DNA of 64,000 nucleotides, taken from contig NZ_CP144914.1 in the NCBI RefSeq assembly GCF_008014775.2, positions 2,480,001-2,544,000 of the forward strand, written 5' to 3'. The stretch's first letter is position 1. The number at the start of each line of letters is the position of its first letter. The stretch comes from Alkalicoccus halolimnae (GTDB taxonomy: Bacteria; Bacillota; Bacilli; Bacillales; Salisediminibacteriaceae). The notes beneath the pieces are model-generated. The model saw only the letters and a list, made by a program, of their open reading frames with translations. It was not told the DNA's origin and searched no databases. The position numbers and the translations under genes were made by a program. Of this stretch, positions 1-1,562 are shown one piece after another.

Positions 1-1106
1 CGTTTCCAGTAAACGAGCAGCATGAACAAAACAGCCGCAAAGGCGAGGTCCGCGCCGTTTCCAACAGCGGACGTAAACACCGGGCTGTAGAGCGCTGCGG
101 CGAGAATCCCTACGACGGCGGCGTTGATTCCGGCTGCCGCTGCACGCATTCCCGGCGCCTGCTGGATTTTAAGCCATAGAGGCAGTACGCCTAACAAAAG
201 CAGAAAAGCCGGAGTGAAAATAGCGACGGTCGCTGTAATCGCCCCCGGCGCCCCGTCGATGACCATACCGAGATAGCTTGCGAAAGTGAATAAAGGACCC
301 GGAACGGCCTGGGCAGCTCCGTAGCCGGCGAGAAAGTCGCTTTCGGAAATGAGGCCTGTCGGTACCACTTCCCGTTCCAGAAGCGGCAGGACGACGTGCC
401 CTCCGCCGAAAACGAGCGCCCCCGCCCGGTAAAAGCTGTCTGCAAGCTGAATATGCAGACTGTCGGTAAGAGCCCGCAGCGCCGGCAGAATTGCAAGCAG
501 TCCGCCAAAAAGCGACAGACAGACCGCTGAAAATTTGATGGAAAGAGTCAGCGGAAGCGACTCTGCTTTCGGCAGCTCTTTATTTCTGTAGATCCACCAG
601 CCGATAAGCCCCGCGGTTACGATGACCAGTACCTGAATCCAGACTGCCGGCACAAGCAGGACGAGCGCAAAACCAAGTACGGCAATTGACGCCCGCTGGT
701 TGTCCGGGGCGAGGTTCTTTCCCATCCCGAGCAGTGCGTGAGCGACGATTGCTACAGCTACAATTTTTAATCCGTCAATAATGCCAAGGTCAATAAGACC
801 CTGCTGCTGAAAACCTACGGCTGCCGCCATAAGCAGCAGAATGGAAGGCGTCGTAAAACCGATAAATGAAATGAGACTTCCTGTTATTCCCCCTCTTGCA
901 AGGCCGATTCCCATTCCTACCTGACTTGAAGCCGGTCCGGGCAAAAACTGGCAGAGGGCAACAAGGTCCACGTACTGCTTTTCTGTCAGCCATTTTCTTC
1001 TGTTGACGTACTCCTCCTTAAAGTATCCCAGATGCGCGACCGGCCCCCCGAAAGAGGTCAGACCGAGCCGCAGCGATACGAGAAAAATTTCGAGCCATGT
1101 TTTCAT
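1..1106 (-). CDS. chrA: Chromate transporter, CHR family (3' end outside window)
   Basis: Integral membrane chromate efflux protein of the long two-domain CHR type. About 368 residues are visible and the reading frame is open to the window edge; the family is usually about 390-400 residues, so only the last segment is missing. The N-terminal half shows the SFGGP signature near residue 20 and LPGPASSQ near residue 60. The C-terminal half repeats them as GGGHVVLPLL and AVPGPLFTFASYLG. The ATG is preceded by GGAGGG at a spacing of about 9. It lies 30 bp downstream of the phosphatase-like gene on the same strand, so the two are probably cotranscribed. CHR proteins export chromate, or act on related oxyanions; the substrate here is inferred from family only. 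Confidence 0.93.
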   Translation of the reverse strand, partial: MKTWLEIFLVSLRLGLTSFGGPVAHLGYFKEEYVNRRKWLTEKQYVDLVALCQFLPGPASSQVGMGIGLARGGITGSLISFIGFTTPSILLLMAAAVGFQQQGLIDLGIIDGLKIVAVAIVAHALLGMGKNLAPDNQRASIAVLGFALVLLVPAVWIQVLVIVTAGLIGWWIYRNKELPKAESLPLTLSIKFSAVCLSLFGGLLAILPALRALTDSLHIQLADSFYRAGALVFGGGHVVLPLLEREVVPTGLISESDFLAGYGAAQAVPGPLFTFASYLGMVIDGAPGAITATVAIFTPAFLLLLGVLPLWLKIQQAPGMRAAAAGINAAVVGILAAALYSPVFTSAVGNGADLAFAAVLFMLLVYWK

Positions 1107-1136: not shown

Positions 1137-1562
1137 TTATGTTTCATAAAGATGACGAAGCACATTCCGTGCCTCCTCCTGGATGTGTGCGCTGTCCCGA
1201 TAGCGGAGAATCGTCTTCTGAGCCTCTTCTACCGTTCTTTCTCCACCTAGTTCCAGCAGTACTCCTGCAGCCACACTCCCGGTGCGGCTTCTGCCACCTT
1301 TTCAATGAAGGACGGCACTACCGCCGCGCTCCAGCAAGTCTGCTGTAAAGCGGACTGCCCGCAGCAGCTCTTCCGGATCTGTCGGACCTCCGTTTATTAA
1401 GGAAAATGATTTCGTTCCATGGACAGAAACGGTCTCCGAGAGCGGGCTTTCCGCTTCCGCACGCAGATCGATGACATAATCAGGATGCTCCTTCCGGGAA
1501 ATTTCTCCCGCTTCCGAAGCTGAACTCATGAACAGCCGCTCCAATATTTCTTCGGACCTCAT
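1137..1562 (-). CDS. Protein-tyrosine/dual-specificity phosphatase-like protein with in-frame TGA at the catalytic Cys
   Basis: A frame of 142 codons is open except for one TGA at 1302-1304. Reading TGA as X gives residues SAVLHXKGGRSRTGSVAA, which is the HCX5R phosphatase loop with X at the catalytic cysteine. The upstream DLRAEAES and downstream ERTVEEAQKTI segments fit small Bacillales tyrosine phosphatases, and the total of about 141 residues is normal for them. The chosen ATG has GGGAGG 8 bases upstream; a longer in-frame start at 1589 lacks a site. Downstream of TGA, bases 1289 to 1269 form an 8-bp stem with a CGGGA loop, starting 12 nt after the stop. Either the residue is selenocysteine or the gene is inactivated by a single point mutation (or a base-call error). 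The first gene of a probable pair with chrA. Confidence 0.75.

Follow-up and report, generated by a model that had tools for sequence, protein, structure and literature searches.

A probable selenocysteine form of a dual-specificity phosphatase encoded next to a chromate transporter gene in Alkalicoccus halolimnae

A phosphatase-like gene with UGA at its catalytic codon

The window analyzed here, 64,000 nucleotides of Alkalicoccus halolimnae (assembly GCF_008014775.2, contig NZ_CP144914.1, positions 2,480,001 to 2,544,000), carries near its beginning a minus-strand gene that resembles a dual-specificity phosphatase (DSP) and is interrupted once by TGA. An earlier note, made from the letters alone, had described one continuous frame with a single TGA exactly on the catalytic cysteine (Cys) codon of an HCX5R phosphatase, and our analysis bore this out. 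The frame opens at an ATG (1562-1560) preceded by GGGAGG, contains its sole in-frame TGA at 1304-1302, and closes with TAA at 1139-1137. Translation through the TGA yields 141 residues in an otherwise intact frame, including the motif LHUKGGRSRTGS, in which U87, the predicted selenocysteine (Sec), falls in the HCX5R loop. We refer to this gene as the Sec-DSP gene; it and the features discussed below are:

1137..1562, minus strand: Sec-DSP gene, 141 codons plus TAA, with UGA as codon 87 (translation, Pfam, 21 TGA genomes)
1302..1304, minus strand: UGA codon, predicted Sec at the catalytic position of HUX5R; aligns with TGC or TGT of 18 Cys homologues
1269..1289, minus strand: hairpin resembling a selenocysteine insertion sequence (SECIS), 8 bp in the window and 7 bp common to the family, loop CGGGA at 1277-1281
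3..1106, minus strand: chrA-family chromate transporter gene (PF02417, 249 bits; TIGR00937, 345 bits, cut-off 171.7)

Pfam matched the protein to Y_phosphatase3 (24.7 bits, cut-off 22.2) and, below the respective cut-offs, to DSPc (22.9 bits, cut-off 33.5), PTP-SAK and Tc-R-P; LMWPc was not among its Pfam matches at an E-value of 0.001. A profile built on 31 family members found DUSP10 among PDB sequences (1.1e-10, positions 6-135), and HUX5R stands in DSP-like sequence where a DSP has its HCX5R loop. By sequence, then, the protein belongs to the protein tyrosine phosphatase (PTP)/DSP group.

Homologues were found in 34 of 150 relatives (0.001), 13 of which contain one TGA. At the 30 loci that were read, the catalytic codon was TGA in 12 and TGC or TGT in 18, the mixture that the earlier note had proposed looking for and that is expected of a selenoprotein gene, with UGA where homologues have Cys. 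A TGA-pattern scan of a species-genome collection, which by design detects TGA forms only, gave 16 loci in 15 named organisms of the genera Alkalicoccus, Evansella, Salipaludibacillus, Halalkalibacter, Halalkalibacterium, Alkalihalobacillus, Sinobaca, Litchfieldia, Mesobacillus and Bacillus. An order-wide profile search matched 75 of 397 genomes at 1e-15, mostly with Cys forms, and added two TGA genomes (G541 and G554). Altogether, 21 distinct genomes of Bacillaceae and kin carry TGA at the same position, 19 in open frames and two in decayed copies. The start codon could not be assigned with certainty in MRMR6, H. wakoensis and Litchfieldia, though these frames are open through the family length. 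TGA and Cys copies occur together in A. chagannorensis (G003) and G554; the A. chagannorensis Cys paralogue (L079 6074-6454) is divergent, with a long branch and no ars or chrA genes close by.

A phylum-wide search matched 9 of 398 genomes, with TGA in the window's genome alone; viral contigs gave 0 matches to the TGA pattern; and five plasmid records gave protein matches at 29-31% identity, annotated as dual specificity protein phosphatase. Four genomes of the window's own genus (G002, G004, G005 and G007) had no homologue match in the search of 150 relatives.

The downstream hairpin and the selenocysteine machinery

The hairpin drawn in the earlier note was recovered base for base. Positions 1289-1282 pair with 1276-1269 in an 8-bp stem containing a single G-U pair (1285/1273), with 12 nt between UGA and stem and 20 nt between UGA and loop. 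Published limits for bacterial SECIS elements call for a loop of 3-9 nt, a stem of 4-16 bp, a G within the first two loop bases, a spacing of 16-37 nt and a minimum free energy of at most -7.5; the window's hairpin lies within them (5-nt loop CGGGA, spacing 20, -13.8 kcal/mol), and so the SECIS check suggested by the note came out positive.

The hairpin that the TGA genes have in common pairs over 7 bp, and its five-base loop includes GG and begins 20 nt past the UGA. The exceptions are one locus (L044) at which the program adds a pair, giving a spacing of 21, and the decayed copy in genome G006, which has a different hairpin at 29. Stem pairing was counted over 18 rows, including the decayed copy of Alkalihalobacillus bogoriensis and leaving out G006, G541 and G554; 99.2% of 126 pair cells were formed, compared with 14-54% for slid-partner controls. 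In all 18 rows, and in G541 and G554 as well, the stem encodes Arg, Ser and Val with CGC, AGY and GTG, whereas among 19 Cys genes CGC is used in 3 and GTG in 4. Over codons +1 to +12, mean silent differences were 0.471 in 17 Sec genes and 0.730 in 19 Cys genes; the corresponding values were 0.778 and 0.775 upstream, and 0.799 and 0.767 after the hairpin. A local drop in silent change at the hairpin is what a SECIS element within a coding region predicts.

A covariance model of the hairpin region scored the window at 8.1e-14 and, across the 150 genomes, gave matches at 2e-6 or better solely in the 13 genomes with a TGA gene, 12 of which had contributed to its 18 training rows. Matches to Cys homologues came next, four in all (4.3e-5 to 0.009), along with three others near 0.008.

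The host assembly (3.69 Mb, one contig) encodes the machinery that Sec insertion requires, another point the earlier note had asked to have checked: selA, selB, selD and tRNA-Sec are all present, clustered within C1:1968271-1973604. The tRNA-Sec scored 61.1 bits (gathering score 47) and was also called as tRNA-SeC by ARAGORN. The selD gene of this cluster (G000:C1:1970248-1971174, L146) likewise carries an in-frame TGA, ahead of GCKIGPADL, making it, on sequence grounds, a second selenoprotein gene of the genome. Formate dehydrogenase was considered as a further selenoprotein and rejected: none of three FdhA-family matches in the genome has a TGA.

We tested selA and selB in 13 of the 21 TGA genomes, those among the 150 relatives, and found both in all 13. 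Across the 150 genomes selA was present in 86 and selB in 87, and both were present in 10 of 21 genomes having Cys homologues only (Fisher 0.0012 against the 13 of 13).

Conservation, decay and the meaning of the UGA

The ratio of nonsynonymous to synonymous differences (pN/pS) in 17 Sec genes was 0.55 before the UGA and 0.44 after it, and in 19 Cys genes 0.41 before and 0.38 after the catalytic codon, with silent sites near saturation in both sets. In the window's three closest relatives, pN was 0.26-0.36 and pS 0.70-0.72 beyond the UGA. Judged by these comparisons, the post-UGA part of Sec genes is maintained as protein.

A tree of 36 rows required two Sec/Cys changes. Eighteen Cys rows form one clade with the Litchfieldia Sec gene beside it, and the window clusters with A. 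chagannorensis, G021 and Sinobaca, with the G003 Cys copy as a long branch near this group. Adding distant outgroups raised the count to three Sec changes, on a weak root (76/71) with long branches.

The two decayed copies differ in what they have kept. In G006 (L070 5981-6401) the frame is lost and the hairpin loop region has given way to longer sequence that contains an inverted repeat of its own; the flanks still match and chrA lies downstream. In A. bogoriensis (L064 283-625) the frame is broken, the SECIS-like hairpin is intact and chrA still adjoins. G541, of the same genus as A. bogoriensis, has an open copy.

The earlier note had left two readings of the TGA, selenocysteine or a one-base nonsense mutation landing on the key codon, and the evidence favors the former. 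Two decayed copies among 21 indicate that loss occurs. Nevertheless, with the same TGA in 21 genomes rather than one strain, 19 of the frames open, the hairpin conserved, selection evident and Sec machinery in every genome tested, it is scarcely credible that the gene is a Cys phosphatase pseudogene or a product of sequencing error. A genuine stop acting as a selenium- or stress-controlled switch, working through an 86-residue product or by controlling chrA translation, is also highly improbable, if a little less so. Such a switch would suit the start of chrA only 30 nt after the gene, and the protein sets hold only 86-residue pieces, from two close relatives, although gene callers would yield these either way. 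It would not explain why the catalytic loop and C-terminal part, conserved at a pN/pS of 0.44, lie downstream of the UGA, why the UGA sits on the catalytic codon, or why chrA is missing from 10 of 21 loci. We rejected pseudogene, sequencing error and regulated stop alike on these grounds. An alternative genetic code was also rejected, as 7 of 33 non-overlapping open reading frames of at least 200 amino acids in the window end in TGA.

Some observations do weigh against decoding as selenocysteine. The SECIS limits are loose, and 9 of 18 Cys genes also contain some hairpin within them (-7.8 to -8.8 kcal/mol, compared with -8.0 to -19.8 at the 12 TGA loci); the argument therefore rests on the position and sequence common to the TGA genes. 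Two-sided change was seen at only one of seven stem pairs (A-U to G-C, in 3 of 18 rows), and four of the seven are invariant across the 18 rows. Two of the 21 TGA copies are decayed, and because the genomes are related, the Fisher values overstate independence. Against this background we still consider it very probable, from the sequence comparisons, that UGA 87 is decoded as Sec by SelB and tRNA-Sec by way of the hairpin, and that Sec is the nucleophile of a DSP fold. In that mechanism, SelB and tRNA-Sec would read the codon guided by the hairpin 12 nt downstream, and the product would be a single-domain DSP-fold enzyme with its Sec nucleophile in an oxyanion-binding HUX5R loop. A less certain further step is that the loop would bind a tetrahedral phosphate-like oxyanion or a phospho-ester for attack by the selenolate, with selenium serving to preserve a reactive nucleophile that can be repaired in oxidizing, alkaline surroundings.

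Gene neighborhood, relatives and possible function

Three features bearing on function go beyond the earlier note: a link to chrA, Cys relatives in ars operons, and an extra Cys in most Sec forms. In the window, chrA starts 30 nt past the Sec-DSP stop on the same strand and runs past the window's edge (full match G000:C1:2479961-2481073); ars genes were absent from the first 12 kb. We compared neighbors at 21 Sec and 22 Cys loci, with flanks from 0.1 to over 6 kb per side. With both decayed copies counted, chrA stands beside 11 of 21 Sec loci and 0 of 22 Cys loci (Fisher 6e-5, kinship uncorrected). ArsC, conversely, adjoins the Cys gene at 17 of 22 loci and a Sec gene at 1 of 21 (Fisher 9e-7, kinship uncorrected); 13 of the 17 ArsC-linked Cys loci also have ArsA and 11 a HesB-like gene. 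All 37 genomes searched have a single chrA-family match (1e-40), and in 9 of 16 TGA genomes it lies within 3 kb of the Sec gene, at 30 to 1774 bases between match ends. Were the genomes independent, at least nine such proximities would arise from position alone with a chance of about 2e-21, but they are related. The Sec loci without chrA had no common partner among the neighbor proteins scanned.

Among Sec loci, ars genes were found in Halalkalibacterium ligniniphilum alone, beyond chrA. Its row (L060 1041-4928) comprises the Sec-DSP gene, chrA, a relative of a PadR-like gene, and arsR-arsB-arsC, and is a possible bridge between the chrA and ars contexts. The chrA match of Halalkalibacter wakoensis (L063 5832-6927) is split in two and may be frame-shifted or mis-assembled. 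Near the chrA-less Sec-DSP gene of Halalkalibacter akibai lies a CitMHS/Na_sulph_symp-type anion transporter with TrkA_C (L065 3118-4377).

An extra Cys near residue 14, in the motif F-x-C-G/S/A, occurs in 16 of 19 intact Sec proteins and 0 of 19 Cys proteins, and 14 of the 19 contain no such residue other than this Cys and Sec. The column holds Ser in the window and in A. chagannorensis, and Gly in Litchfieldia. By profile alignment alone, the column matching the Asp of the DUSP10 motif ATDS, which we take to be the general acid, holds Asp in 14 of 19 Sec forms and Asn in the other five, among them the window.

The Cys branch has a described counterpart. Homologues of the window's gene occur in operons similar to ars1 of Bacillus sp. 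CDB3 (arsRYCDATorf7orf8), likewise with ArsA and a HesB-like gene beside them, the likeness to CDB3 being by description only. Two papers term orf8 a putative DSP (PMC4562236, PMC5481582), and the former, citing Zheng et al. 2013, reports that Orf8 increased arsenate resistance in E. coli without replacing ArsC (PMC4562236). This makes plain arsenate reduction a less than obvious role for the Cys branch. Homology ties the window's gene to this branch, but its location is not an ars operon; moreover, Orf8-type genes encode Cys, lack the common hairpin and sit in an arsenic context, whereas the Sec branch carries the FxCG Cys in 16 of 19 members. Cys-based DSPs such as DUSP10, to which the profile match was made, and archaeal-type PTP share the HCX5R loop with the window's protein, which differs in having Sec for Cys and Asn at the general-acid column. 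The LMW-PTP-type (low-molecular-weight) arsenate reductase ArsC belongs to another fold family; the ArsC at locus L083 matches LMWPc.

ArsC is a CX5R-loop enzyme acting on an oxyanion and encoded beside efflux genes, and with the Cdc25-like Acr2 it is a model for phosphatase loops turned to toxic-oxyanion chemistry. A Sec nucleophile would stay active, and could be recovered, in the presence of a strong oxidant, chromate for example. Efflux genes accompany both the Sec and the Cys branches of the present family, and on this basis an oxyanion-stress role for the family, with the Sec genes as one branch and the substrate inferred, seems to us about an even proposition. A narrower version, in which Sec attacks chromate or a similar oxyanion and the FxCG Cys resolves it as a selenenylsulfide in most members, in partnership with ChrA, is more tentative. 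If true, this would add one more independent adaptation of the CX5R loop to toxic-oxyanion chemistry and, to our knowledge, the first selenium-based one; the window's protein, without the FxCG Cys, would then need an outside thiol.

Several findings count against such a role. Ten of the 21 Sec loci lack chrA, and the related Orf8 did not take the place of ArsC (PMC4562236). In the window's own protein the general-acid column holds Asn, and Ser stands at the position of the extra Cys seen in most Sec forms, which means that its mechanism cannot be a Cys-Sec pair. The same Sec protein might instead be an ordinary signaling or metabolic phosphatase with incidental neighbors, in which selenium only raises the rate or resists oxidation. 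We hold this to be a real but lesser possibility. The sequence is DSP-like throughout, 14 of 19 intact Sec forms retain the putative general-acid Asp, and 10 of 21 loci lie beside unshared genes; set against it are the 9 of 16 TGA genomes, each with a single chrA, where that gene lies less than 3 kb from the Sec gene, the ars operons around the Cys branch, and Asn in place of the acid in five of 19 forms, the window included.

The earlier note knew of no described selenoprotein family of this kind, and the literature we consulted agrees. A 2026 review tabulates 119 prokaryotic selenoprotein families or subfamilies (PMC13188914, Table 1); the table has no CX5R-type phosphatase, and the text has no word beginning "phosphatase". 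The window's gene resembles the catalogued selenoproteins in having Sec at a reactive Cys position and a bacterial SECIS just past the UGA. The table includes arsenate reductase (TIGR00014) and arsenite methyltransferase, a precedent for Sec in arsenic chemistry, and the review regards most selenoproteins as having redox roles. A fusion of a Sec peroxiredoxin with a PP2C-type phosphatase has been described (PMC2398784), but there the phosphatase is of another fold class and is the fusion partner. NCBIfam searches with four proteins matched no selenoprotein model, the sole match, PRK12361, being far under cut-off. A single-sequence search of public proteins returned two relatives of 86 residues each, and in a profile search "selenoprotein" appeared in no name among the best 120 of 686 matches. 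As far as these searches reach (few subscription papers and no preprints), this is a new selenoprotein family, and a phosphatase of known kind in a Sec form.

Sec as the nucleophile of a phosphatase-type loop would offer a natural test of selenium's benefit in that chemistry, and would connect the use of Sec with genes for oxyanion resistance in bacteria of saline and alkaline habitats. The protein sets that were searched have these genes cut at the UGA; one family model would recover about twenty.

Around the Sec-DSP gene, promoter-like sites numbered 2 (1.1 in shuffles) and terminator-like sites 2 (0.8 in shuffles); one of the latter, at 1175-1157, falls within the 3' end of the gene. None of these sites carries weight in the argument. 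An Rrf2-family regulator gene, with no relative among the 30 loci compared, lies divergent from the Sec-DSP gene at 1784-2200 on the plus strand.
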